Shown here piece by piece: positions 5,064-34,222 of a stretch of 34,222 nucleotides of DNA. How positions within the stretch are numbered: the first letter of the stretch is position 1; each line of letters opens with the position of its first letter. The DNA is from Acidobacteriaceae bacterium (GTDB lineage Bacteria > Acidobacteriota > Terriglobia > Terriglobales > Acidobacteriaceae). The notes beneath the pieces were generated by a model. It searched no databases. It was given only the letters and a program-made list of their open reading frames with translations, and was not told the origin of the DNA. The translations under genes were made by a program, and so were the position numbers. The stretch lies in contig PLUW01000070.1 in the NCBI GenBank assembly GCA_003162935.1, positions 18,565-52,786 of the forward strand, given 5' to 3'.

Positions 5064-6482
5064 TCACGCACCGGCCGATAGCCGGTGCGTGCTGCGGCTT
5101 TGGGCGATGCCGTACTGGCGAATCTTATAGAGAAGCGCTTTGTAGCTGATCTTAAGCAGCACGGCGGCTTGTTTGCGATTCCAGTTTGTCTCTTCCAGGG
5201 CGCGGGCGATGGCTTCCGCTTCGGCTCCGTCTTTCGCGTTACGCGACAGCGACTTCAGGCCGCCGCCAGACTCCGCGCCAGCGACTGCGCTTCTGCCTTC
5301 GACGTGCGCTCCTCCACCGCCATCGGGCCGGGGCTGCAATTCGGACGCGGCCAGAGTTTCGTCTCCCAGAACGAGGTAGCGTTTGATGAAGTTGCTGAGC
5401 TCGCGCAAGTTGCCGGGCCAGTTGTGGCGGAGACATGCCTCCATCAACGGAGGCGAAAGCGGCAACGGGGAACGGGCGTAGGACTCCGACATGCGCGACA
5501 TGAAATGTTTCAGGAGGATCGGGATTTCTTCCTTGCGCTCGCGCAGCGGAGGCAGCGACATAGTGAACGCGTTCAAGCGGTAGTAAAGATCTTCCCGCAG
5601 GCTCTTGTTGGCGAGCGCTTCGGGGATATCGATGTTGGTGGCGGCCAGGATGCGCACGTCGACCTTGACCATGGTGCGGCTGCCGAGGCGCGAGAAAGTC
5701 TGGTCCTGAAGGACGTGTAAAAGCTTGGCCTGCAACCCCGCCGGCATTTCTCCGATTTCGTCGAGCAGGATGGTGCCTTTGTTGCAGATCTCGAACTTGC
5801 CGGGCTTGGCGTGGGTGGCGCCGGTAAACGCTCCCGCCTCGTAGCCGAAGAGCTCGCTTTCGAGCAGGTCGGCGGGCACGGCCGCGCAGTTCACTTTGAG
5901 GAAGGTGCGGTGGGCGCGCGGAGATAGTTTGTGGATCAGGCGGGCGAGCACTTCCTTGCCGGTGCCGCTTTCGCCGAGAAGCAACACTGGGATGTCGACG
6001 TTGGCGACGAGCGCGGCTTGCGATCGAATCTTCTTCATCGCCGGGCTGGCGGCAATGAAAAACACGTCGTCGCAAAGCTCTTCGACTTCGCCAGCGTAGC
6101 TTTCAGCTTTGGCCGTGCCGATGCACTGTCCAATGACCGCGTCGAGTTCGGCCTTCTGAAACGGCTTGGTCAGATAGTCGATGGCGCCCAGGCGCATGGC
6201 CTGCACGACTTTGCGCGTGTCATTCACGCACGAGAGCATGACAACCTTCAATCCGGGCTTCAGGTGGCGGAGTTGTTCGAGAGTCTGCAAGCCATCGATG
6301 CCGGGCATGAGCAGATCGAGCAGCACCAGATCCGGTTGCAGCCCTTTGCGAACGTGCTCGACGGCTTCTTCGCCGGTGCTGGCGGTTTGAACTTTGTGCT
6401 CATCCACTTCCAACAGGGTGCGGATGTAGCGCAGCATTCCCGGTTCGTCATCCACCAGCAGGATGTTGGCGGCTTCGCTCAT
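5064..6482 (-). CDS. Sigma-54-dependent response regulator, NtrC family
   Basis: 472 residues from the ATG at 6482. The earlier track start (6545) lies inside the upstream kinase gene, and the ATG at 6482 overlaps the kinase stop in an ATGA, with GAGGAA upstream. Domains: a receiver (residues 1-120: acidic pair Asp11/Asp12, phospho-acceptor Asp56 in LVLLDLLMPGIDG, Lys106 in LTKPF); an AAA+ sigma-54 activator domain (Walker A GESGTGKE about 170-177, sigma-54 contact GAFTGA about 217-222, LLDEIGEM Walker B); and a Fis-type helix-turn-helix at the C-terminus (NWNRKQAAVLLKISYKALLY). It would activate RNA polymerase-sigma-54 when phosphorylated, most likely by the overlapping upstream kinase. Target genes are unknown. 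Confidence 0.95.
   Translation of the reverse strand: MSEAANILLVDDEPGMLRYIRTLLEVDEHKVQTASTGEEAVEHVRKGLQPDLVLLDLLMPGIDGLQTLEQLRHLKPGLKVVMLSCVNDTRKVVQAMRLGAIDYLTKPFQKAELDAVIGQCIGTAKAESYAGEVEELCDDVFFIAASPAMKKIRSQAALVANVDIPVLLLGESGTGKEVLARLIHKLSPRAHRTFLKVNCAAVPADLLESELFGYEAGAFTGATHAKPGKFEICNKGTILLDEIGEMPAGLQAKLLHVLQDQTFSRLGSRTMVKVDVRILAATNIDIPEALANKSLREDLYYRLNAFTMSLPPLRERKEEIPILLKHFMSRMSESYARSPLPLSPPLMEACLRHNWPGNLRELSNFIKRYLVLGDETLAASELQPRPDGGGGAHVEGRSAVAGAESGGGLKSLSRNAKDGAEAEAIARALEETNWNRKQAAVLLKISYKALLYKIRQYGIAQSRSTHRLSAGA
5065..5091 (-). terminator. Strong hairpin overlapping the stop codon of the response regulator
   Basis: A perfect 11-bp stem (CACGCACCGGC / GCCGGTGCGTG) with a 5-nt loop covers the last codons and most of the TGA stop (5064-5066) of the minus-strand sigma-54 response regulator gene. 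Downstream in the minus direction is only ATTTAACTG, so it is a weak intrinsic terminator at best. It could instead serve as a 3'-end RNA stabiliser. Confidence 0.5.
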
Positions 6483-14731: not shown

Positions 14732-15925
14732 TCACCGTTCCACCGCCATCGCCACCGCGTTCCCGCCGCCCAGGCATAGCGCTGCAATCCCGCGATGCAC
14801 GTCGCGGCGAATCATTTCGTAGATCAAAGTGACGAGCACGCGGGCTCCGCTGGCCCCGATGGGATGGCCGAGGGCAACTGCGCCTCCATTGACGTTTACG
14901 CGATTCATATCGAGCCCCAGTTCGCTGCAGACTCCGAGCGCTTGCACCGAGAAGGCCTCGTTCAGTTCGTAGAGATCGACATCGTCTTTCTTCCAGCCCG
15001 TCTTCTCCCAGATTTTGTGGACGGCGCCCACGGGAGCCATCATCACCCACTTCGGCTCGACTCCGCTGGTCGCCTGCGCCACGATGCGGACCATCGCCGC
15101 TGCCCCCAACTCTTTCGCGCGTGCAGCGCTGGTGACGACCAGAGCGGCCGCTCCGTCGTTGACTCCGGGAGCGTTGCCGGCGGTGACGGTGCCATCCTTC
15201 TTGAAGGCCGGTTTGAGCGCACGTAAAACTTCTATGGTCGTGTCCTCGCGCGGGCCTTCGTCTATGTCAAAGATTACAGGCGGCTGGCCTTTCTTCTTCG
15301 CCGGGAGTTCCACGGGAACGATCTGCGATTTGAAACGGCCTTCCTTCTGCGCGGCGATGGCTTTGCGATGCGAGTTGACGGCGAACTCATCCTGCTCTTC
15401 GCGCGTGATGCCGTACTTTTCGGCGACGTTCTCGCCCGTCACTCCCATGTGATAGTCGTTGTAAATTTCCCAGAGCCCGTCGTGCACCATGGAGTCGACC
15501 AGTAGTCCGTTGCCGAGGCGATAGCCCTTGCGGGCGTTGGGCAGCAGATAGGGCGCGTTGGTCATCGACTCCATGCCACCGGCGACGACGATGGAACTGT
15601 TGCCGGTTTGAATTGCCTGCGCGGCGAGTGCGACCGACTTCAGTCCCGAGCCGCACACCTTGTTAATTGTCATGGCACCTACTTCGGGAGCGAGTCCGCC
15701 GAACAGTGCCGCCTGCCGCGCCGGATTTTGACCGAGTCCGGCAGAGACGACGTTGCCCATGATGCACTCGTCGACTTGCTGCGGTTGCAGGTTCGCGCGC
15801 TTGACGGCTTCGCGGACTGCGACCGCACCGATCTGCGTCGCGGTCATGTCGCTCAGACTTCCCTGAAATTTTCCGATCGGCGTGCGGCATCCCGCGATGA
15901 TCACAACCTCGCTCAAACCAGCCAT
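14732..15925 (-). CDS. Acetyl-CoA C-acetyltransferase (thiolase II)
   Basis: 397 residues, standard for biosynthetic thiolases (AtoB/PhaA/ThlA type). It condenses two acetyl-CoA to acetoacetyl-CoA, or performs the reverse cleavage. Motifs: nucleophile Cys91 in [32 protein letters not shown], His354 in [16 protein letters not shown], and the second active-site Cys384 in CLGGGNA. The tetrameric biosynthetic group is suggested by length and the loop '[28 protein letters not shown]'. AAGGAG lies about 8 nt before the ATG. It stands alone here, so whether it serves polyhydroxybutyrate, mevalonate or fatty-acid breakdown cannot be told. Confidence 0.95.
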
Positions 15926-16299
15926 AAATGCGCTCCTTCGCTGCGTTACGTTTTCTAGGACGCTCTCCCAAGCGATGCGCCGCTCAGGAATCGTCTCTCA
16001 TTATAGATCGTGGAAAAGCTTCGCGAAGCTCGCTGCGCGCAATCGCGAAGGCGAGCATCTGCTCGCAGCGCCTGCGATTGCACAACGGTGATGAGAGAGG
16101 AACCAGCGAATGCTTTTTGAGGTCGCGCGAACTTTTTCTTGCGCGCGCGAGTCGCGCAGGTGACTTTGGTCTGTGTCGCATGCGACGGTTTCGATCATTT
16201 TTCTCTTGACTTCGTTCTGCGTTGGCTCATACATTCAACTAGTTGCAACAATTGATCGTTGCAAAAATTCCATGAAGAATGGAAAGGGAGAATAGATCC
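15926..16299. other. Structured intergenic region upstream of a micro-ORF
   Basis: 374 nt without a convincing gene. It holds a perfect 14-bp palindrome AGCTTCGCGAAGCT (16017-16030). It also holds a long imperfect hairpin at 16039-16081, with outer stem GCAATCGC/GCGATTGC and inner stem GCGAGCA/TGCTCGC separated by internal loops. A GCGCGCGCGAGTCGCGC-rich stretch follows near 16140-16157. The right part carries the promoter of the lysine-rich micro-ORF. The short ORFs here (15928-16209, 15984-16181, 16001-16234) look like translations of these palindromes. Confidence 0.5.
16206..16235 (+). promoter_or_regulatory. Promoter of the lysine-rich micro-ORF
   Basis: -35 TTGACT (16206-16211), 18-nt spacer, -10 TACATT (16230-16235). 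The start would be near 16242, directly followed by an inverted repeat TTGCAAC-N8-GTTGCAA (16243-16264) that could be an operator or a 5' RNA hairpin. Confidence 0.6.
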
Positions 16300-16347
16300 A
16301 TGGCAACCAAAAAGAAAGCAAAGAAGAAAAGCAGCAAAAAGCACTAA
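16300..16347 (+). CDS. Lysine-rich 15-residue peptide (micro-ORF)
   Basis: ATG at 16300, preceded by AAGGGAG with 9-nt spacing, encodes MATKKKAKKKSSKKH and ends with TAA. Nine of 15 residues are lysine, with one histidine. It is far too short for the ORF track. It has its own promoter (16206), a 5' inverted repeat, and an intrinsic terminator 25 nt after the stop, so it is a complete transcription unit. Such a basic peptide could bind DNA, RNA or membranes, like the tails of histone-H1-like bacterial proteins. Alternatively the unit is a small RNA and the ORF incidental. The function is unknown. Confidence 0.55.
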   Translation: MATKKKAKKKSSKKH

Positions 16348-16371
16348 GCAACTGCAACAGGCAACGACAAA

Positions 16372-16402
16372 GGGGACGCGATGAGCGTCCCCAAAGTTTT
16401 TT
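16372..16402 (+). terminator. Intrinsic terminator
   Basis: Perfect 8-bp stem GGGGACGC/GCGTCCCC with loop GATGA, followed by AAAG and six T. It ends the micro-ORF transcript and lies 15 nt beyond the stop of the convergent helicase gene. Confidence 0.9.
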
Positions 16403-16416
16403 GCGGCATTGTGCGG

Positions 16417-19392
16417 TTAATGAACGCGCTTCTTTTGCGAGGCTGCGACCGACTTCTCCGTCGCCGGACACAAATTGCGATAGGGACAGAACGAGCAGTG
16501 ATACTTGGGGTTCGCGTGGAACTTGCCCTGTGCGATTCCGTCCGCCACTTTTTGCACGCGCAACTTGGCTTCTTCGAGTTCGGCGTCGGTGCGAGTCGTG
16601 GAGACAGACGTGTTGTTTTCGAGGTTATAGAGCACGAGGCGATCGGCGTGTTTTCCCAGCGTTTCCTTGGCCGCGAGCGCATATAAGGAGAGCTGCAGGC
16701 TCTCATCGGCGTCCTCCTGCGACTGTGGCTTGCCGGTTTTGTAGTCCACGATGGCGACGGTGCCGGGGCCGGTCCGATCCATGCGATCGACGCGCCCGGT
16801 TAGTTTGGACGAGCCCACCAGCAATTCAAACTTGTGTTCGGTCTCAATCACCTCGGGTGGCGGAGCGGCGCGCGCGATCTCGAAGAACTGCCGCAACTGC
16901 TCCCTTCCCTGCCGCAAATACAGATCGTACTGATAGCGGTCGGCAATACCCGCAGCCGCGAGATCGGACCGAAACAGTTCCAGCAAATCTTCGTCGACGA
17001 CTTCCCTCTGATATCGCTGCGCATCGTAGAAGGTGTGCAACACGCGGTGCATGGCGGCTCCGTAGTGCAGCGCCGCGGGGACCTCGCGCGGCAGGTTCCA
17101 CTCGCGTTCGAGCTTGAAGCGCAGCGGACACGTTTCGTACGTGCCAATCGAGGACGCGCTGAGGCCGGTGAAGAAATTCTCCGACGGCCGCATCATCAAC
17201 CAGGTCGCCACATTCGAACGCTCCAGGGCGATGCGCTGTTCCTCTTCCGCAAACAGAGCGTCTTGCACGGCCGCTGCCGGGCGAGTCGACCAGAAGCCTC
17301 TGTAAGGCGAGCTGCCCATAAACTCGCGCAAGAACTTGGTGGGGCGGGGATCCTTCTGGCCCGTGCCCTGTTTCGCGTAGATCGCCAGTGTATCTTTGGC
17401 ACGCGTCATCGCGACATAGAAAAGGCGGCGTTCCTCTTGTTCGTGCAATGTCTTATCGTCGGTCGAGCCCGCGTCCGACGTGCGCAGCTCGGGCGGAAAA
17501 GCAATCAGCGGCTCGCGGTAGGGTGTCGGGAACGAAGTCGATGAGCCGCGAACAATGGCCACGTGCCGATACTCCAGTCCCTTGGCGGTATGCACGGTCA
17601 AGAGCTGCACGGCGTCATCCTGGCTACGCGGGAGCGAAACTCCGCCTTTGGCTTGCACAAAGTAGTCGAGGTAGTCGAGGAATTCGGCAAGGCTTCCGGT
17701 TTCCGTGGTGGCTTTCGTGTGCCAGCCTTCCACAAACTTCAGGAACGCGGCGACCATGGCCGGCGACTCCAGGTCGAAATTCCGGATTACAAGTTTCGCC
17801 GCGTGATCCGCGCGCGCTCCTTCCTGCTCCACTTCGCGGTGCATGCGGGCCACGGTTTCGAGCACGGCTGCCCCTCCGGCGAGCTTTTGCAGCACGGCGC
17901 GCAGATCGAGTTCCCGCCGACCCGCCCTCATGGCGGCGCGCAGTTCGACGGGGCTGATGCCAAACTGCGGCAGAGCCGCCACGCGAAACAGACTGGCGGC
18001 ATCGTTGGGCGAGACCGCGGCGCTCAGGCAGGCGACGACGTCGCGAACCTCGGGGCTATCTAGAACGTCCAAACCTTCAATGGAGAATGGAATTCCGCGT
18101 TCGGTGAATTCACGGACCAACTGGTTGCGGTGGCTGTGCTGACGATAGAGCACGGCAAAATCGCTCCACTTGCAGCGCTCGGCCTTACGCGTCTTCTGGA
18201 TGCGACCGGCGAGGTCGGCGGCCTCGACCTCGGTGTCGCCCCAGGGCACGATTTCTACGAGGGGCGCGGGATCCCTGTTTCCGGCTTGCGCCGACTCCTC
18301 ATGGCGCAGCGATACCAAGGGCGCTCGCTCATACGCGATGGAACCGGCGATCGAAGCGGTCGAATCCTTCCTTTTCTTGTGGGGCGCGAATACTTGAGGA
18401 TTTTCGGCCACAATCCCAAACGCGCAGCGCAGGATCGGCGAAAGAGAGCGGCGATTCTTCCCGAGCACTACGATTCGGGTTGCGGGAAAATTCTTCGCGA
18501 ACAGGGTAAATGCTTCGCTTGAAGCTCCGCGAAACTTGTAAATGGCCTGGTCAGGATCGCCCACGGCAAAAACATTTGCCTCGCGTCCGGCGAGCATCGA
18601 CATAATTTCGCTCTGCGCGAAGTTCGCATCCTGGAACTCATCCACCAGCAGAAAGCGCGTGCGGCTCCGCTCTTCCTCGAGCAGCGCCGGATCGTCCTTC
18701 AACAATTGATAGGCCCGGGTAATCATGTGGCCAAAGGTGCCCAGATTGTTCTCACGGAGCATGTCTTCGACGGCGGTGAAAACGCGGGCAATCTCCTGGC
18801 AGCGTTCGAGAATCTCCGCCGGCTCAAGATCCGCCTGTTTCTTTGCCTTCGCAACCCTAGGCAATGGGACCTCGCCGCGTTCAATGCGCTCTACATAACG
18901 ACTGTATTCCGCGGGGCCGACCAGTTCGTCCTGGCAACGACGCATGAAGTCGAGCAGGCTGTCGAGAAACTCTCCGACGTTGGCTGCGCGCACGAAGTGC
19001 TTCAGTCGAAGATCGCGAATGCGGCGGCGCAGGAATATCCACAGATCTTTTTCGTCGAGCACGCCAAAACCGGCGCCGCGGCGCTGCAGCAATCCGTTGC
19101 CCCAGGCATGGAAGGTGCAAGCCCGGAGTCCGTCAATGGCGGTGTCTTTGAGTTCGGCGCGGACGCGGGCCAGCATTTCCGCCGCGGAATTGTCGGTGTA
19201 GGTGAGTGCGAGAATTTCGTCGGCGCGCGCGTGGCCCTCGCGGATGAGATTGGCGATGCGCTGCGTGAGGACGGTGGTCTTGCCCGTGCCAGCGCCGGCG
19301 ATGACCAGCATGGGACCATCGACGTGCGCGATGGCTTGTTGCTGGCGCTCATCGGGAACGATTTTCGCTGCAGGTAGAACGGTTGTAGCCAC
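16417..19392 (-). CDS. UvrD-like superfamily 1 helicase fused to a PD-(D/E)XK nuclease with an Fe-S-type cysteine set
   Basis: 991 residues from a GTG start. Helicase motifs in order: Q-motif DERQQQAIAH; Walker A GAGTGKTT (33-40); motif II VDEFQDA near 250; VGDPDQAIYKFRGA (III); VHTAKGLEYRHV (V); FYVAMTRAKD (VI). The C-terminal quarter is a RecB/AddB/Cas4-type nuclease: GRVDRMD, then IVDYKTGK near residue 880. It also has a cysteine in TYETCPLRF (about 753) and three in YHCSFCPYRNLC (about 965), the C...CxxCx5C arrangement of Fe-S nucleases. A role in resection of double-strand breaks, like AddAB/AdnAB, is likely. The gene follows rsmE with a 53-nt gap and probably belongs to the heat-shock operon transcript. 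No AddB partner is visible. Confidence 0.93.
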   Translation of the reverse strand: MATTVLPAAKIVPDERQQQAIAHVDGPMLVIAGAGTGKTTVLTQRIANLIREGHARADEILALTYTDNSAAEMLARVRAELKDTAIDGLRACTFHAWGNGLLQRRGAGFGVLDEKDLWIFLRRRIRDLRLKHFVRAANVGEFLDSLLDFMRRCQDELVGPAEYSRYVERIERGEVPLPRVAKAKKQADLEPAEILERCQEIARVFTAVEDMLRENNLGTFGHMITRAYQLLKDDPALLEEERSRTRFLLVDEFQDANFAQSEIMSMLAGREANVFAVGDPDQAIYKFRGASSEAFTLFAKNFPATRIVVLGKNRRSLSPILRCAFGIVAENPQVFAPHKKRKDSTASIAGSIAYERAPLVSLRHEESAQAGNRDPAPLVEIVPWGDTEVEAADLAGRIQKTRKAERCKWSDFAVLYRQHSHRNQLVREFTERGIPFSIEGLDVLDSPEVRDVVACLSAAVSPNDAASLFRVAALPQFGISPVELRAAMRAGRRELDLRAVLQKLAGGAAVLETVARMHREVEQEGARADHAAKLVIRNFDLESPAMVAAFLKFVEGWHTKATTETGSLAEFLDYLDYFVQAKGGVSLPRSQDDAVQLLTVHTAKGLEYRHVAIVRGSSTSFPTPYREPLIAFPPELRTSDAGSTDDKTLHEQEERRLFYVAMTRAKDTLAIYAKQGTGQKDPRPTKFLREFMGSSPYRGFWSTRPAAAVQDALFAEEEQRIALERSNVATWLMMRPSENFFTGLSASSIGTYETCPLRFKLEREWNLPREVPAALHYGAAMHRVLHTFYDAQRYQREVVDEDLLELFRSDLAAAGIADRYQYDLYLRQGREQLRQFFEIARAAPPPEVIETEHKFELLVGSSKLTGRVDRMDRTGPGTVAIVDYKTGKPQSQEDADESLQLSLYALAAKETLGKHADRLVLYNLENNTSVSTTRTDAELEEAKLRVQKVADGIAQGKFHANPKYHCSFCPYRNLCPATEKSVAASQKKRVH

Positions 19393-19445
19393 GTTGAGTC
19401 TCTAGCCGGAGAATATCAGAGGTGCTTGTGGAAGGCTGTGCGGAA

Positions 19446-20183
19446 TCAAAGAACGGCTTCGAGGGCCAGCGCCGTCGCGACAATGGCGGCGGTTTCCGCT
19501 CGCAGAATTGTGTCGCCGAGCGAAGCCGCGACCCATCCCTCGTCGTAGAACCAGGAGAGTTCTCCGTCGGCCCATCCGCCTTCGGGGCCCACGGCGAGCG
19601 CGATTTCGCTGGGCGAGGATTGCAACGCATCCGCGAGACGCGTGTCTTCTTCCGACTCGGCTAGAACAACGCGGGTCGCCGATTCCGCCGAAACCACGCT
19701 ACCAAGCTCCTTCAGTTTGACGGGAGCCGCGATCTCAGGAGGCGCCGCGCGGCGCGATTGCTCCGCCGCCTGACGCACGATGCGCAGCCAGCGTTCGTGG
19801 CGCTTCACAGCGGCCGCAGCCAGATGAGCATCGCTCCGCCGGGCAATGACGGGAATGATGCGGGCTACGCCGATCTCGGTGCACTTCTCGATCGCCCACT
19901 CCATACGATCGAACTTGAAGATGGCGAGGGCCAGCGTGATCTTCGGAGGGCCGCTCAGCGATGTGAGCTTTCGCTTACGGTGTGCCTTTACGCCAAGCGC
20001 GAACTCCACGCGATCGTAGGAGATCGTGGTTATAGTTCCGCGGCGAATGTCGTCGCCGGTTGCAATGTCGAACTCCTGCCCGACTTCGGCGCGGAGCACG
20101 CGAGCAAGATGAGCGGCATGCTCGCCGACCAGCGCGGCGGTATCTCCAGATACTTCGTCGGCGATCCAACGGCGGCGTGTCAT
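19446..20183 (-). CDS. rsmE: 16S rRNA m3U1498 methyltransferase RsmE
   Basis: 245 residues, a SPOUT-fold methyltransferase. The N-terminal PUA-like part includes 'HLARVLRAEVGQEFDIATGD'. The knotted C-terminal domain has KCTEIGVARIIPVIARRS, VGPEGGW and LGDTILRAETAAI, the signature SAM-binding loops. It uses S-adenosylmethionine to N3-methylate U1498 in the decoding region. rsmE commonly follows dnaJ in heat-shock operons, as it does here, with a long repeat-filled gap (20186-20302) between them. Confidence 0.95.
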   Translation of the reverse strand: MTRRRWIADEVSGDTAALVGEHAAHLARVLRAEVGQEFDIATGDDIRRGTITTISYDRVEFALGVKAHRKRKLTSLSGPPKITLALAIFKFDRMEWAIEKCTEIGVARIIPVIARRSDAHLAAAAVKRHERWLRIVRQAAEQSRRAAPPEIAAPVKLKELGSVVSAESATRVVLAESEEDTRLADALQSSPSEIALAVGPEGGWADGELSWFYDEGWVAASLGDTILRAETAAIVATALALEAVL

Positions 20184-20187
20184 AAAC

Positions 20188-20301
20188 CAGCTCTCAGCTC
20201 TCAGTTTTCAGCTCTCAGTAACGGCTCATTCATCTGAATGCAGGGAAATTGATAGAGTCGGCGTCTCTTGCTGAAAACTGAGAACTGACAGCTGAGAGCT
20301 G
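20188..20301. repeat. Paired TCAG-type repeats forming a long inverted repeat
   Basis: The left arm (20188-20219) is built of CAGCTCTCAG/CAGTTTTCAG units. The right arm (20271-20301) contains CTGAAAACTG and CAGCTGAGAGCTG, largely complementary to the left. A unique 51-nt core lies between. The element sits between dnaJ and rsmE and could fold into a large hairpin in the operon mRNA. Confidence 0.8.
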
Positions 20302-20303
20302 CC

Positions 20304-21431
20304 TTACACAAACATATCTTTCACGCGTCCCAACAGCGACCGGCTCTGCGGCTTGTTTTCCACTGGAGCCAGTTCTCCCAGTTCGGCCAGCAGCTCGCGC
20401 TGACGCTTATTCAGCTTCCCCGGCGTTTGAATTCGCACCTCGACGTACAAATCGCCTGCGCCATGCCCATTCAGAACGGGCACACCTTTGTTTTTTATGC
20501 GAAACGAAGTGCCCGACTGCGTACCTTCGGGAACTTTCAGCTTGTGCTCTCCCTCCAGCGTCGGAACCAGAATTTCAGTTCCCAGCGCCGCTTGCGGAAA
20601 AGAGATCGGGACCACGCAGTGCAGGTCGTTGCCCTCTCGTTCAAAGAAAACATGCTCTTTGACGTGCAGGACAATATACAAATCTCCGGCCGGCCCGCTG
20701 AACGCGCCCGCTTCGCCGAGTCCGGTGAAACGAATGCGCGTGCCGTCCTCTACTCCCGCAGGGACTTTGGCTTCGACCACGCGCTCGCGCAGCAAGCGGC
20801 CCTCGCCTCTGCACTTCGCGCAGGGATCGGTGACAACGCTGCCCGCGCCCTGGCAGGTGGGGCAGGTTCGAGCGATGCTGAAAAAGCCTTGCTGATAGCG
20901 CACCTGGCCTCGTCCGTTGCACGACTTGCACGCCACCGGAGCTTTGCCCGACGCCGCGCCGCTGCCGCGGCAGGAATCGCAGGTCTCATGGCGGCGGACG
21001 TTCACTTTTTTGTCGACGCCAAAGACAGCTTCCTCAAATTCGAGGTTCAGATCTTCGCGGAGATCGGCCCCGCGCTGGGCGCGGCTGCGGCGGCGGCCGC
21101 CCTGCCCGAACATGTCGAAGCCGAAAATGTCGCCAAAGATATCGCCGAAATCCTGGAAGATGGCAGGATCGAATCCTGCCGGACCGCCAGCGCCGCCGCC
21201 CAGTCCGGCGTGCCCGAAGCGGTCATATAAAGACCGCTTCTCGCTGTCGGCGAGGATCGCGTAGGCTTCGGTGATCTCCTTGAACTTCTCTTCCGCTTCG
21301 GGATTGTCCGGGTTGCGGTCGGGATGGTGCGTCATCGCCAGCTTGCGGTACGCGCTCTTGATTTCAACGTCGGTCGACGCTCGGGTGACGCCCAACACCT
21401 CGTAATAGTCGCGTTTTGTGTTTGCGGCCAA
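20304..21431 (-). CDS. dnaJ: Chaperone DnaJ (Hsp40)
   Basis: 375 residues from a TTG at 21431 that gives M-AANTKRDYYEVLGV; a GTG at 21443 is the alternative. The track start (21509) runs through an intergenic repeat and is unlikely. The J domain has HPD in MTHHPDRNPDN. A Gly/Phe-rich stretch follows (GLGGGAGGPAGFDP...FGFDMFGQGG). There are four zinc-finger repeats (CDSCRGSG, CKSCNGRG, CPTCQGAG, CAKCRGEG), then the C-terminal substrate-binding domain. It stimulates DnaK ATPase and delivers unfolded proteins in the cytosol. It follows hrcA-grpE; dnaK is not in this operon. Confidence 0.96.
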   Translation of the reverse strand: MAANTKRDYYEVLGVTRASTDVEIKSAYRKLAMTHHPDRNPDNPEAEEKFKEITEAYAILADSEKRSLYDRFGHAGLGGGAGGPAGFDPAIFQDFGDIFGDIFGFDMFGQGGRRRSRAQRGADLREDLNLEFEEAVFGVDKKVNVRRHETCDSCRGSGAASGKAPVACKSCNGRGQVRYQQGFFSIARTCPTCQGAGSVVTDPCAKCRGEGRLLRERVVEAKVPAGVEDGTRIRFTGLGEAGAFSGPAGDLYIVLHVKEHVFFEREGNDLHCVVPISFPQAALGTEILVPTLEGEHKLKVPEGTQSGTSFRIKNKGVPVLNGHGAGDLYVEVRIQTPGKLNKRQRELLAELGELAPVENKPQSRSLLGRVKDMFV

Positions 21432-21450
21432 AAACTCCCCCACTGTTTGT

Positions 21451-21545
21451 ATTCGGTCGTCGGTCGTTAGTCGCTGCTCGTTAGCCCTCGGCCGTTGGCA
21501 GAACGGCAAACTCCCGAACGACTAGCGGCCAACGACTGACGACGT
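21451..21545. repeat. CGTCGGTCGTTAG-type inverted repeat between grpE and dnaJ
   Basis: The left arm has CGTCGGTCGTTAGTCGCTG and the right arm CGACTGACGACG with GCGGCCAACG, largely mutually complementary, around a core with GGCCGTTGGC. It is a different sequence family from the TCAG repeats but has the same architecture and intergenic placement. Confidence 0.65.
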
Positions 21546-21572
21546 TTTTGCAGGTAAGCAAATGAATCGAAG

Positions 21573-22157
21573 CTATCCCTGGCTGTTGCGAGCCACCCGC
21601 ACCATGGCCGGACGCAGCAGGCGCTCCTTGAACTTGTAGCCACGCTGCAATTCCTCGAGCACATGATGGTCCGGCGTTTCGGTCGTATCCACCATTTCGA
21701 TCGCTTCGTGAACTCTGGGATCAAACGGCTGCCCCACCGCCGCAATCGCCTGCACTCCAATTTTCTGCAGCGCATCCTGAAACTGGCGGTAGATCAACTC
21801 GATGCCACTGCGAAAGTCGGAGGCGTCACCGCCGGCTTTCAAAGCGCGCTCAAAACTGTCGAGGATGGGCAGAACATTCTTGATGACGTCCGCCGCGGCG
21901 AACTCGCGAAACTCCTGCTGCTCGCGCACCGCGCGCTTGCGCGCATTGTCGAATTCCGCCTGCAGGCGGGCCAAGCGATCGAGCAGTGCGTCGCGTTCCG
22001 CCTTCAGTTGCTCGGTTTCCGACGCCGCTGCGTTCTCCGCCGCTATGCCCACAGGCGCGGGAGCCGCAGATTCTTCCGCGTCTTCCGCTGCCGGAAGCTC
22101 GTGCTCAAGATCAACGTTCCCTTTGGTTTTTCCGTTTCCCTTACCCATGCTGCTCAC
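21573..22157 (-). CDS. grpE: Nucleotide exchange factor GrpE
   Basis: 194 residues from a GTG directly following the hrcA stop; an ATG three codons later (22148) is an alternative. A disordered acidic N-terminus precedes a long coiled coil (ETEQLKAERDALLDRLARLQAEFDNARKRAVREQQEF) and a C-terminal beta domain with the GrpE signature 'PFDPRVHEAIEMVDTTETPDHHVLEELQRGYKFKERLLRPAMVRVAR'-like block. It releases ADP from DnaK. It is tightly packed with hrcA, with zero spacing, indicating translational coupling. Confidence 0.96.
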   Translation of the reverse strand: MSSMGKGNGKTKGNVDLEHELPAAEDAEESAAPAPVGIAAENAAASETEQLKAERDALLDRLARLQAEFDNARKRAVREQQEFREFAAADVIKNVLPILDSFERALKAGGDASDFRSGIELIYRQFQDALQKIGVQAIAAVGQPFDPRVHEAIEMVDTTETPDHHVLEELQRGYKFKERLLRPAMVRVARNSQG

Positions 22158-23225
22158 TTACTCCGATTCATTCAAAAGTTTGTCGAACAGCCGCGCGATA
22201 TACGACACCGCCGACATGGTGTGCTGATAATCCAGCCGCGTCGGCCCAATCACGGCCAGCGACCCCATCACTTCGCCGCCGACGCGCGCCGGAGCGCCAA
22301 TCAGGACGAAATTCTGCAAATTCGAAGCCGGCATCGCCTCGTCGAGCCCAATCACTACGCGGACCGCCTCCTGCCGCGTATCAAGATAGGCGCCTAGCAA
22401 CTTCACAACCTTTTCTTTTTCCTCAAGCGTCCGTAGCATTTCCTGTAGGCGCTGACGATCTTCCTCTCCCGTCGCCTGATTCGTCCCGAGGTTCGTAACT
22501 AAGTTCGCCGCGCCTTCGACGAATACCGCCTGGGTGTCGTCCGTCGCCGCCAGCGCTCCCTGCTTGTAGAGCTGATCGAGGGACTTCATCAGCCGGTCGT
22601 ACTCGCTGCGTTCCTGTTCGAGGCGCCGAGCCAGTTCGGCGCGCATGTCGCTCATCGTCCAGCCGCGAAAATTTTCGTTGATGTAGCGCGCGGCCAAATC
22701 CAGATCCGACTGCGGAATGTCCAGCCGCAGGACCCGATCGCGCACCACTCCGGACCGCGCGACCACCACCGCCAGCACCTTGGCATCGCCGAGACGCGAA
22801 AAATAAACATGCTCCAGCGCATTGCGGGGCCCGCTCGTGGCCACCGTGACGCCAACGCCGTGCGAGATCAGCGAGAGCACATGCGAAGTCCGCTCCATGA
22901 ACTCCTGCACATCGCTTACGCCGGTCAAAGTGTCTTGAATAATGCTCTGATTCTCGTGCGAAAGATGGGCCTCGCCGCTCAGCTGCTCGACGTAATATCG
23001 ATACGCTTCCGCCGTAGGCACGCGCCCCGCGGAAGTATGCGGCTGCTCCAGGAATCCAGCGTCGGCCAGATCGGCCATCACATTGCGAATCGTAGCCGCA
23101 CTCAATCCTTCGCGGCTGGCACGCGCGAGGGTGCGCGAACCCACCGGCTCTCCGCTGGCAATGAATGTCTCGACGATGGCGGTCAGGATTTCCCGTTCCC
23201 GTCCGCCCGCTGGCCCTGGTGGCAT
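22158..23225 (-). CDS. hrcA: Heat-inducible transcription repressor HrcA
   Basis: 355 residues. The N-terminal winged helix includes EREILTAIVETFIASGEPVGSRTLARAS and SAATIRNVMADLADAGFLEQPHTSAGRVPT, the standard HrcA block. The C-terminal GAF-like dimerisation domain ends 'GSLAVIGPTRLDYQHTMSAVSYIARLFDKLLNE'. HrcA normally binds CIRCE (TTAGCACTC-N9-GAGTGCTAA) upstream of heat-shock operons. I cannot find CIRCE in the 200 bp upstream; only a small TCTAAA-TTC-TTTAGA inverted repeat is present (about 23261-23275). It is the first gene of the hrcA-grpE-dnaJ-rsmE-helicase run. Confidence 0.96.
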   Translation of the reverse strand: MPPGPAGGREREILTAIVETFIASGEPVGSRTLARASREGLSAATIRNVMADLADAGFLEQPHTSAGRVPTAEAYRYYVEQLSGEAHLSHENQSIIQDTLTGVSDVQEFMERTSHVLSLISHGVGVTVATSGPRNALEHVYFSRLGDAKVLAVVVARSGVVRDRVLRLDIPQSDLDLAARYINENFRGWTMSDMRAELARRLEQERSEYDRLMKSLDQLYKQGALAATDDTQAVFVEGAANLVTNLGTNQATGEEDRQRLQEMLRTLEEKEKVVKLLGAYLDTRQEAVRVVIGLDEAMPASNLQNFVLIGAPARVGGEVMGSLAVIGPTRLDYQHTMSAVSYIARLFDKLLNESE

Positions 23226-23436
23226 TTCGATATCTACCGAGTCTCGGAGCCGAAGCGCTCCTCTAAATTCTTTAGATGCAGTGGCTTAGATTAGGATTCC
23301 ACCGCGCCTAATGGAATTCTAGGGAGTGGTGGAGAGGGTGTCAAGGATGGGGAAGGCTAGAGACAGAAGCTGCAAAAGCTGTCAGACCACTTTGCCACCC
23401 TAAATGCCGGATTTTGGGTGGGACCGGGCGCGATCG

Positions 23437-23589
23437 CTAGTGGGGGCGAGCGGAGGGTTTGAGTTCAGCCGCGATTGGGACCATTGCCACCAGACCGTGC
23501 CCATCGACATAATCGTCAACGCGCACCCAGCCATTGAGCACCAGTGCAAGGTAGAAGGCGTTGCCCAGCATTACCCATACGGTTGCCAT
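23437..23589 (-). CDS. Possible 50-residue small protein
   Basis: This frame is below the ORF track cut-off. The ATG at 23587-23589, with AGGTG 4 nt upstream, gives a hydrophobic N-terminal stretch (MATVWVMLGNAFYLALVLNG), then 'WVRVDDYVDGHGLVAMVP', and ends with TAG. The composition looks protein-like, but I do not recognise it. It lies 9 nt after the small gene 23599-23805 on the same strand and could be its partner. Confidence 0.35.
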   Translation of the reverse strand: MATVWVMLGNAFYLALVLNGWVRVDDYVDGHGLVAMVPIAAELKPSARPH

Positions 23590-31792: not shown

Positions 31793-31965
31793 GGTCAGAG
31801 ATGAGAGGTCAGAGGTTCGAGGTCAGATTGCAGAGGTTAGAACCTCGGGGCTCACAGTGCCGTTCGCGCTCGGACTTTTTTACCTCTGCAATCTGACCTC
31901 TGACCTCTTCAATGGCTTCACTTACAATCTGACCTCTAACCTCTGACCTCTCTGCTACACTCTTT
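31793..31965. repeat. Palindromic AGGTCAGATTG element, copy 2
   Basis: The arms are GAGGTCAGATTGCAGAGGTT and CCTCTGCAATCTGACCTCTG, enclosing a core with GGCTCACAGTGCCGTTCGCG and CTCGGACTTTTTTACC. Further right-arm copies follow at 31925-31950. The core is clearly related to that at 27779-27925. The -10 candidate TG-C-TACACT (31953-31961) of the S9 peptidase gene is at its right end. Confidence 0.8.
31953..31961 (+). promoter_or_regulatory. Extended -10 of the S9 peptidase gene
   Basis: TG-C-TACACT at the right border of the repeat element; the start near 31968 leaves a 15-nt leader with GGGGAGA before the ATG at 31983. Confidence 0.4.
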
Positions 31966-31982
31966 TGTTTCGGGGAGACACT

Positions 31983-34222
31983 ATGCGACGTCTGGTTTTT
32001 CTTTTCGTTTTGCTTTTTTCTCTTCCTGCATTCTCGCAGGCCAAACATCCCTTCACTTTTGAAGACATGATGAAGTTGAAGCGGGTCGGCGAGCCTGTGC
32101 CTTCTCCGGATGGGAAATGGGTGCTGTTTAGCGCGGTCGACGTGGATCTGGCCGCGAATACGAAGACGCCGCACATCTGGATCGTGCCGCTGAATACGAA
32201 TAATAACGGAGCGACGGGCGTCTCGCCCGTCCAGCAAGGCTCTGGAGGACAGGAGCGCGTGCTCATCGCCGATCAGGATGGCGATCGTCCGCGCTGGGCT
32301 CCGGATGGGAAGCGGTTTGCGTTTCTCTCGAACAAAGACGGCGGCTCGCAGGTTTGGATTGCCGATTTCGATGGCGCTGCCGGTGCCGTTACTGGAATCC
32401 ACGAGTTGACTACGATCGCCACCGAAGCGGGCGGCGAACTCTGGTCGCCGGATGGCAAGTACATTCTGTTCACCTCGGATGTTTATCCGGAATGCGACGG
32501 CGCAACCAAGGAAGAGGCCGCCTGCAACGCGAACAAGGTGGAAGCGGCGGGGAAGTCCAAAGTTAAGGCGCTGATCTTCGACCGGCTTTTGTATCGCCAT
32601 TGGAACGCCTTCAAAGTGGGCAAGCGCAGCCACATTTTCGTCGTCGCGGCTCCGCCGGCCCGACACGAACTGCCGGATAGTGCTGCCGAGACGCAAAGCA
32701 CCACCACGGTCGCCCTTCCCCGCGATCTCACGCCGGGTGATTACGATGCTCCTGTGTTCTCGCTGGGCGGGCAGGACGACTACGCTTTCTCTCCCGACGG
32801 GCAGGAGATTTGCTACACCTCGAATCACGACAAGGTCGAAGCTGCTTCCACCAATAACGATCTGTGGATCGTTTCGGTGAATGGAGGTGCGGCCGGATCT
32901 GTCCAAGCCAAGAACATCACCGCCGACAATCCCGCCAGCGACTCGACTCCGCTCTATTCGCCCGATGGCAAGTACATCGCCTACCGCGCCCAGCAGCGTC
33001 CGGGATACGAAAGCGACCGCTTTCGGCTGATGCTGTTTGACCGGAAGACGGGGGAGAAGAAGAGTTTGGCAGCGAACTTTGATGGCTGGGTGGGCACGAT
33101 CGCCTGGGATCCGGGTTCGAAAGTCATTTATTTTGGATCCGAAAAAGCCGGCGAATCGCCGATCTACAAGATCGGGGTGGACGACGGAAAGATCGGCAAA
33201 ATCGCTTCCGGGTACGACGATGACTTTTCGGTTATCGACGGCGGACGGACAATTTTGTTTACGCGGATGGCGGTCGGCAGCCCTAGCCAGATCTATGTCT
33301 CGGGCACTTCGCTCTTGACTAGTAAGAATTGCGTCGAAGACAGGTTTAGTCCTCCGGGGCTCCCGGCATCGTCGGAGACCCCGGATTGCGCATTGCCTAA
33401 GGCGACTGCTCTTACTCATCTGAACGACGGCGTGCTCTCGGAAGTCGCCATGTCGCCGCTTGAATCTTTCTGGTTCCCTGGCGCGAAGGGCGACAAGGTC
33501 GAGGGTTTCCTCGTCAAGCCACCGAACTTTGATGCTTCCAAGAAATATCCGGTGAAGTTCCTCATCCACGGCGGCCCGCAGGGGGCTTGGGGAGACGACT
33601 GGTCTTATCGCTGGAATCCGGAACTTTTCGCCGCCAACGGATACGTGGTTGTCATGATCAACTTCCACGGCTCGACTGGATACGGGCAGAAGTTCATTGA
33701 CGCGATCAACGGGAATTGGGGCGGCGCTCCATTTGAAGATTTGATGAAGGGGCTGGACTACGCGGAGAAGACTTATCCGTTCATCGACAAAGACCGCGAG
33801 TGCGCTCTGGGCGCTAGCTACGGCGGATACATGGCGAACTGGGTGCTTGGGCATACCGACCGTTTCAAGTGCATCGTGTCGCACGACGGCATGTTCAATA
33901 CCGAATCGGCCTGGGGAACGACCGAAGAACTCTGGTTCAATAACTGGGAGTTCAAAGGGACTCCTTACAGCAACCCGGCGATGTATGAGAAGTGGTCTCC
34001 GCGCAATTCGGCCAGCAATTTCAAGACGCCGACGCTGGTCGTCCACGGGCAACTGGACTACCGGCTCGACGTCAGCGAAGGCTTCCAGCTTTTCGACACG
34101 CTGCAAGTGATGGGCGTGCCGTCGAAGATGCTTTACTTTCCCGACGAGGGACATTGGGTGTTGAAGCCGCAGAATGCTCAGCTTTGGTATAAGACGGTCA
34201 ACGACTGGGTGGATCGGTGGAC
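31983..34222 (+). CDS. Secreted S9-family prolyl oligopeptidase-like peptidase, partial (right edge)
   Basis: It is absent from the ORF track because no stop occurs before the window ends; about 746 residues are visible. The signal peptide is MRRLVFLFVLLFSLPAFSQA. A beta-propeller with WD40-like PD40 repeats follows ('PSPDGKWVLFS', 'RWAPDGKRFAFLS', 'WSPDGKYILFTS', 'YSPDGKYIAYRA'). The alpha/beta-hydrolase domain then has Ser612 in GASYGGYMANW, Asp692 in HGQLDYR and His724 in DEGHWV, the catalytic triad. HGGPQGAWGDDWS carries the oxyanion region. It is a periplasmic or outer-membrane dipeptidyl/oligopeptidase. Two palindromic DNA elements are translated within the propeller (32213-32231 and 33353-33385). 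A 781-aa antisense frame is a shadow. Confidence 0.92.
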   Translation, partial: MRRLVFLFVLLFSLPAFSQAKHPFTFEDMMKLKRVGEPVPSPDGKWVLFSAVDVDLAANTKTPHIWIVPLNTNNNGATGVSPVQQGSGGQERVLIADQDGDRPRWAPDGKRFAFLSNKDGGSQVWIADFDGAAGAVTGIHELTTIATEAGGELWSPDGKYILFTSDVYPECDGATKEEAACNANKVEAAGKSKVKALIFDRLLYRHWNAFKVGKRSHIFVVAAPPARHELPDSAAETQSTTTVALPRDLTPGDYDAPVFSLGGQDDYAFSPDGQEICYTSNHDKVEAASTNNDLWIVSVNGGAAGSVQAKNITADNPASDSTPLYSPDGKYIAYRAQQRPGYESDRFRLMLFDRKTGEKKSLAANFDGWVGTIAWDPGSKVIYFGSEKAGESPIYKIGVDDGKIGKIASGYDDDFSVIDGGRTILFTRMAVGSPSQIYVSGTSLLTSKNCVEDRFSPPGLPASSETPDCALPKATALTHLNDGVLSEVAMSPLESFWFPGAKGDKVEGFLVKPPNFDASKKYPVKFLIHGGPQGAWGDDWSYRWNPELFAANGYVVVMINFHGSTGYGQKFIDAINGNWGGAPFEDLMKGLDYAEKTYPFIDKDRECALGASYGGYMANWVLGHTDRFKCIVSHDGMFNTESAWGTTEELWFNNWEFKGTPYSNPAMYEKWSPRNSASNFKTPTLVVHGQLDYRLDVSEGFQLFDTLQVMGVPSKMLYFPDEGHWVLKPQNAQLWYKTVNDWVDRW
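32213..32231. repeat. REP-like palindrome inside the S9 peptidase CDS
   Basis: GACGGGCG-TCT-CGCCCGTC, an 8-bp perfect stem, is the same stem as at 14123-14144. It is translated in frame as part of 'GATGVSPVQQGSGG'. Confidence 0.75.
33353..33385. repeat. Second palindrome inside the S9 peptidase CDS
   Basis: TCCGGGG-CTCC, 10-nt loop, GGAG-A-CCCCGGA: an 11-bp stem with one bulge. It is translated as 'PPGLPASSETPD' between propeller and hydrolase domains. Confidence 0.55.

Follow-up and report, generated by a model that had tools for sequence, protein, structure and literature searches.

A single-chain UvrD-type helicase-nuclease beside hrcA-grpE-dnaJ-rsmE, a candidate replacement for AddAB in an acidobacterial family

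AddAB, AdnAB and RecBCD are heteromeric resection enzymes. They replace one another, and a 2019 survey assigned one of the three, all multi-subunit, to 88% of bacterial genomes, the rest being enzyme-less (PMC6452273). Single-chain fusions of UvrD with a pfam12705 (Cas4-like) nuclease have also been surveyed (Hudaiberdiev et al. 2017): most co-exist with RecB, they often adjoin type III R-M or Dcm genes, and defence or ancillary roles were favoured (PMC5704561). Proteins of the Bad/DNA2 type likewise carry an Fe-S nuclease and an SF1 helicase on one chain (PMC7430649). The protein described here, a helicase-nuclease that we call HN, has an architecture that is already known, UvrD plus pfam12705 on one chain; its fixed locus, its lack of a detectable partner and its near-exclusion of AddAB are undescribed as far as the literature that we searched shows, and we found no literature on acidobacterial resection enzymes.

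HN is a 991-aa open frame with a GTG start at 16417–19392, on the minus strand of the window (the whole stretch of 34 222 nt that was analysed). The initial annotation had read UvrD motifs, a PD-(D/E)XK nuclease and a C...CxxCx5C cysteine set into these 991 residues; the frame proved real, its strand being the minus strand, and Pfam and alignment confirmed its content. Pfam matches were to UvrD-helicase (PF00580, 3.7e–61), UvrD_C (PF13361, 5.4e–30) and PDDEXK_1 (1.9e–41), laid out as a UvrD motor at about residues 15–690 followed by a C-terminal nuclease at residues 744–976 (16465–17163, minus strand). In alignments the motor showed motifs Q to III at 18526–19344 (minus strand; Q17, GAGTGKT 33–39, VDEFQD 250–255 and VGDPDQAIYKFRG 277–289) and motifs V–VI at 17398–17598 (minus strand; TVHTAKGLEY 599–608 and EERRLFYVAMTRA 653–665), and the nuclease showed H782, D869, D883 and K885 together with cysteines C755, C966, C969 and C975, whose spacing (C755 + C966-x2-C969-x5-C975) is the exact C...CxxCx5C of an iron staple. 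A comparison of 63 full-length sequences, that of the window and those of 62 relatives, showed no variation at K38 (Walker A), D251/E252, R315 (motif IV), H601 (motif V), the nuclease residues H782/E852/D869/D883/K885 or any of the four cysteines; R664 of motif VI was present in 62, the exception being one relative with an internal gap there. Judged by these residues, the motor and nuclease active sites are both intact, and HN is predicted to bind an Fe-S cluster. In one MAG (L049:9974–12871) motif VI is missing from HN because of an in-frame internal gap, the result of decay or misassembly.

Membership of AddA, RecB, PcrA, UvrD or Rep was rejected, the score of HN falling below the cut-off of every named NCBIfam equivalog model. 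It reached 138 of the 861 bits and 134 of the 708 bits needed for AddA (TIGR02784 and TIGR02785), a test that is weak alone because AddA-like partners of AddB in the window's family fail these two models too. For Rep and PcrA it reached 266 of 951 and 253 of 911 bits (NCBIfam rep and pcrA), and the equivalog cut-offs for RecB and UvrD were likewise unreached; UvrD, PcrA, Rep and UvrD1-UvrD2 have the motor core in common with HN but no nuclease domain, the presence of which, with the equivalog scores below cut-off, excluded UvrD, PcrA and UvrD2. AddB was rejected on the intact motor and an ADDB_N score below cut-off, although HN does share the iron-staple nuclease. The Bad/DNA2 type has an N-terminal nuclease and an SF1B 5'–3' motor, the opposite domain order to that of HN, whose nuclease is C-terminal and whose motor is of the UvrD-type SF1A. 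As a PADLOC defence protein HN was rejected as well, since its matches to GajB reflect the shared UvrD core and another tested helicase scored higher.

The initial annotation had proposed a phylogeny as a check, and in the helicase-core tree HN formed a clade to itself, whose sister (SH-aLRT 97) was a Zixibacteria protein; AddA, PcrA/UvrD/Rep, AdnB, a Dcm-linked UvrD-Cas4 fusion (genome G257) and the M78-UvrD-PDDEXK fusions all fell outside. Deep placement is unsure, since long branches lead to AdnB (a very long one, from a partial sequence), to the Zixibacteria protein and to several others. The M78 fusions, found in two acidobacterial genomes (L168:3944–7369 and L173:3752–7168), join Peptidase_M78 (IrrE-like), UvrD and PDDEXK_1 in 1138–1141 aa. 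Proteins of other acidobacterial families with 28–32% identity to HN had other neighbours and fell in a separate clade, and were rejected as orthologues of the same locus.

What HN shares with the heteromeric enzymes is divided among their subunits. With AddAB (RexAB) it has in common an SF1A motor, a C...CxxCx5C PD-(D/E)XK nuclease and a complementary distribution among genomes (below), but it is one chain of about 990 aa as against about 1200 plus 900–1050 aa, has no inactivated helicase-like AddB, lies far under the AddA and AddB cut-offs and forms a separate clade. The nuclease of HN could be aligned with AddB and AdnA over their iron-staple domains, the cysteines being absent from the C-termini of AddA. 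The AdnA and AdnB chains of Actinobacteria resemble it in carrying a UvrD motor and then a PDDEXK_1 nuclease on the same chain, AdnA also in its C...CxxCx5C nuclease. AdnB resembles it in structure: the AlphaFold2 model of HN is of good quality (pLDDT 84, pTM 0.83), and of its top Foldseek matches AdnB (6ppr_B) agreed best by TM-score (TMq 0.55, TMt 0.70) and by rmsd (7.2). HN combines an AdnB-like active motor with an AdnA-like Fe-S nuclease in one chain. The UvrD-Cas4-like fusions have the same architecture (PMC5704561), but in defence or variable contexts and with RecB, whereas HN occupies a fixed housekeeping locus and nearly excludes AddAB.

That locus consists, on the minus strand throughout, of hrcA (22158–23225; TIGR00331, 260 bits, above cut-off), grpE (21573–22157; NCBIfam and Pfam), dnaJ (20304–21509; NCBIfam), rsmE (19446–20183; NCBIfam), which encodes the 16S rRNA m3U1498 methyltransferase, and HN as the last gene, with a thiolase downstream. 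Reading upstream from HN the gaps are 53, 120, 63 and 0 nt, rsmE thus lying directly upstream. The co-directional order with hrcA-grpE-dnaJ-rsmE that had been claimed from the sequence was borne out in relatives: among 77 HN loci in genome contigs, all acidobacterial except one from a distant Zixibacteria, the full order was found in 47 of the 51 with room to judge, so that the synteny is not a matter of chance, and the thiolase was downstream in 56 of 58. Adjacent rsmE was found in 66 of 68 loci with room to judge (66 of 67 acidobacterial ones), one of the two others being the Zixibacteria match. No type III R-M or Dcm genes of the kind that adjoin UvrD-Cas4 fusions occur in this nearly constant hrcA-grpE-dnaJ-rsmE-HN-thiolase arrangement. 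A lysine-rich tiny frame on the opposite strand (MATKKKAKKKSSKKH, about 16255–16302, plus strand) falls in the interval separating HN from the thiolase, and in an AddAB genome a similar MATKKAAKKPAKKAAKKKK stretch separates rsmE from its neighbouring gene (L201, about 6300–6378, plus strand). Elsewhere in the window a 781-aa frame (31809–34154, minus strand) had no NCBIfam match.

Whether HN acts alone bears directly on its comparison with these heteromers, and the initial annotation had left open both a stand-alone AddA/AdnB-like enzyme and an unlinked partner. Searching with profiles PF12705, PF00580, PF13361 and PF21445, we found no partner in HN genomes that are 99–100% complete. In such genomes of the window's family HN was usually the only PDDEXK_1 protein, a finding on which we rejected HN as an AdnAB, with its two paralogous subunits, most of these genomes having one such protein and no second copy. 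PcrA and HN were usually the only UvrD-type helicases (UvrD_C), a few genomes having an extra helicase or fragment. ADDB_N gave nothing above cut-off in 14 genomes, its weak matches being mostly HN itself, but the test is weak, since AddAB genomes in the set also lacked a match. The window's own assembly had suggested that HN was the sole UvrD-like protein of its genome; we rejected this as an artefact, the assembly being 83% complete and a PcrA-like fragment standing at the start of contig C110, where the gene is cut by the contig end. A heterodimer in which HN is one subunit and the other, encoded elsewhere, has diverged too far to be recognised would agree with the heteromeric make-up of the well-described enzymes of this class (AddAB, AdnAB and RecBCD) and with the difficulty of detecting RecC-like subunits by sequence. 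We consider it very improbable, given that most HN genomes at 99–100% completeness have neither a second PDDEXK_1 protein of AddB size nor any UvrD_C protein besides HN other than PcrA, with no ADDB_N match, and that HN alone carries both parts that AddAB distributes over two subunits, the active motor and the Fe-S nuclease.

The distribution of HN and AddAB was compared in 60 genomes (59 genera) of the window's acidobacterial family, AddAB being scored as an adjacent AddA/AddB-like pair. HN alone was found in 35, AddAB alone in 21, both in 1 and neither in 3. The Fisher value for this exclusion (P = 5e–12) overstates the case: on the PcrA tree there were only three changes of HN and four of AddAB, and AddAB occurred mainly in two clades, implying only about two independent switches. 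An independent-pairs test was without power, the independent switches being too few. In two of the AddAB genomes AddB was identified as TIGR03623 (665–672 bits, cut-off 300). AddAB genomes keep the hrcA-grpE-dnaJ-rsmE...thiolase locus with the HN site empty of HN, and in G273, G272 and G263, for example, a CPBP-like frame (read from its translation) lies at that site. The sole genome with both (G298) has an AddAB-like pair (L171) that is not TIGR03623. One genome with neither (G286) is 99% complete, so that such an enzyme appears dispensable in at least one lineage. Exclusion of AddAB by HN throughout the phylum was rejected, as it fails outside the window's family; distant HN-like proteins of other acidobacterial families (28–32% identity) co-exist there with other PDDEXK_1 proteins. 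In Zixibacteria HN-like proteins are rare.

We therefore favour, with a probability of roughly 0.6, the reading that HN is a stand-alone resection enzyme that took the place of AddAB. The stand-alone AddA/AdnB-like alternative of the initial annotation is supported by the lack of a partner in 99–100% complete genomes, by near-exclusivity with AddAB in the family and by AdnB as the closest solved chain (TM-score and rmsd), while a search for an unlinked partner found none that was recognisable. HN would be an ATP-dependent helicase-nuclease, presumably monomeric or homodimeric, that unites an AddA-type active motor and an AddB-type iron-staple nuclease in one chain and processes double-strand-break ends for recombination, probably by end resection, with one polypeptide for the two of AddAB. 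By analogy with AddAB and AdnAB it would load at a DNA end, where the N-terminal SF1A (UvrD-type) motor would translocate 3'–5' and unwind from the end; the C-terminal iron-staple nuclease, of the AddB/AdnA kind, would cut the unwound strand, and RecA would then take over. On this reading HN would replace AddAB in much of Terriglobia/Terriglobales.

The chief competing reading gives HN an accessory role as a UvrD-Cas4-type repair or defence helicase-nuclease, acting in fork repair or on foreign DNA, with the complementarity to AddAB a coincidence of lineage. Single-chain UvrD + pfam12705 fusions are known and often lie near type III R-M or Dcm genes (PMC5704561), and genome G257, which also bears HN, has a second such fusion (L174), flanked by a C5-methylase and by a ResIII/SNF2 helicase as in the published Dcm context; that HN and AddAB switched independently only about twice also suits coincidence. 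We nonetheless think an accessory role unlikely. The locus of HN is a single conserved housekeeping one and not a defence island, the Dcm-linked fusion branches elsewhere on the helicase tree, and complete HN genomes have no other AddAB/RecBCD-like enzyme, so that under this role their resection enzyme would be missing.

The regulation of HN, a matter compatible with a stand-alone resection enzyme, is less clear. The only promoter-like site found on the minus strand within 15900–23500 was a predicted sigma-70 promoter in front of hrcA (TTGACA-N17-TAGAAT, 23316–23344, minus strand), visible in nearly all close relatives, which makes a single hrcA-to-HN transcript plausible; HN probably belongs to a predicted hrcA transcription unit and would be read through from that promoter. 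A terminator-like hairpin (GGGGACGCTCATCGCGTCCCC, 16372–16392, minus strand) lies 3' of HN, such sites being no more numerous in this region than expected by chance. The window had no site for CIRCE (TTAGCACTC-N9-GAGTGCTAA) at up to three mismatches, whereas nine sister-clade loci (e.g. L018, L048 and L054) had CIRCE-like sites with 1–3 mismatches about 140–190 nt before hrcA. An imperfect dyad in the window (TAGAATTCCA-N10-TGGAATCCTA, 23292–23321, minus strand) overlaps the –10 element of the predicted promoter, and related forms occur in several close relatives, the window's clade having this dyad instead of the CIRCE-like sites of the sister clade; the dyad is possibly a diverged HrcA operator, which would mean a change of operator.

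HN might on this basis be a true heat-shock gene, repressed by HrcA at the hrcA promoter, with break repair rising along with protein damage. The single predicted promoter for the whole unit, the conserved co-directional order, the CIRCE-like sites of the nine sister-clade loci and the dyad on the window's –10 all fit such control, which we hold possible but tentative, leaning against it: CIRCE is missing from the window at the threshold used, the rsmE-HN gap in relatives (median 85 nt) reaches 1.6 kb, four loci (L027, L039, L049 and L062) have rsmE-HN without hrcA-grpE-dnaJ, and the distant HN-like genes of 28–32% identity have different neighbours and lie away from chaperone genes. The gap and the four loci point to rsmE as the steadiest link of HN, the link to heat shock being positional. 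Thus the heat-shock connection drawn by the initial annotation held for gene order and for one predicted promoter, but not for a canonical CIRCE in the window or for loci beyond the chaperone genes. The combined proposal, that a self-sufficient HN resecting double-strand breaks displaced AddAB and that its expression together with hrcA-grpE-dnaJ makes resection capacity follow proteotoxic stress, we judge decidedly unlikely.

What makes HN interesting is the exchange of enzymes: many soil acidobacteria carry the one-piece HN instead of the two-part AddAB. Since the proposed replacement lies inside one bacterial family, it is testable by gene swap between relatives. If true, replacement by a single chain would account for some of the genomes without an assigned resection enzyme, and HN would offer a minimal model of break resection by a single motor and a single Fe-S nuclease, bearing on whether Chi-like control requires an AddB- or RecC-like subunit. 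HN would then be a minimal counterpart of AddAB, AdnAB and RecBCD that has taken over from AddAB in a large part of one family of acidobacteria.
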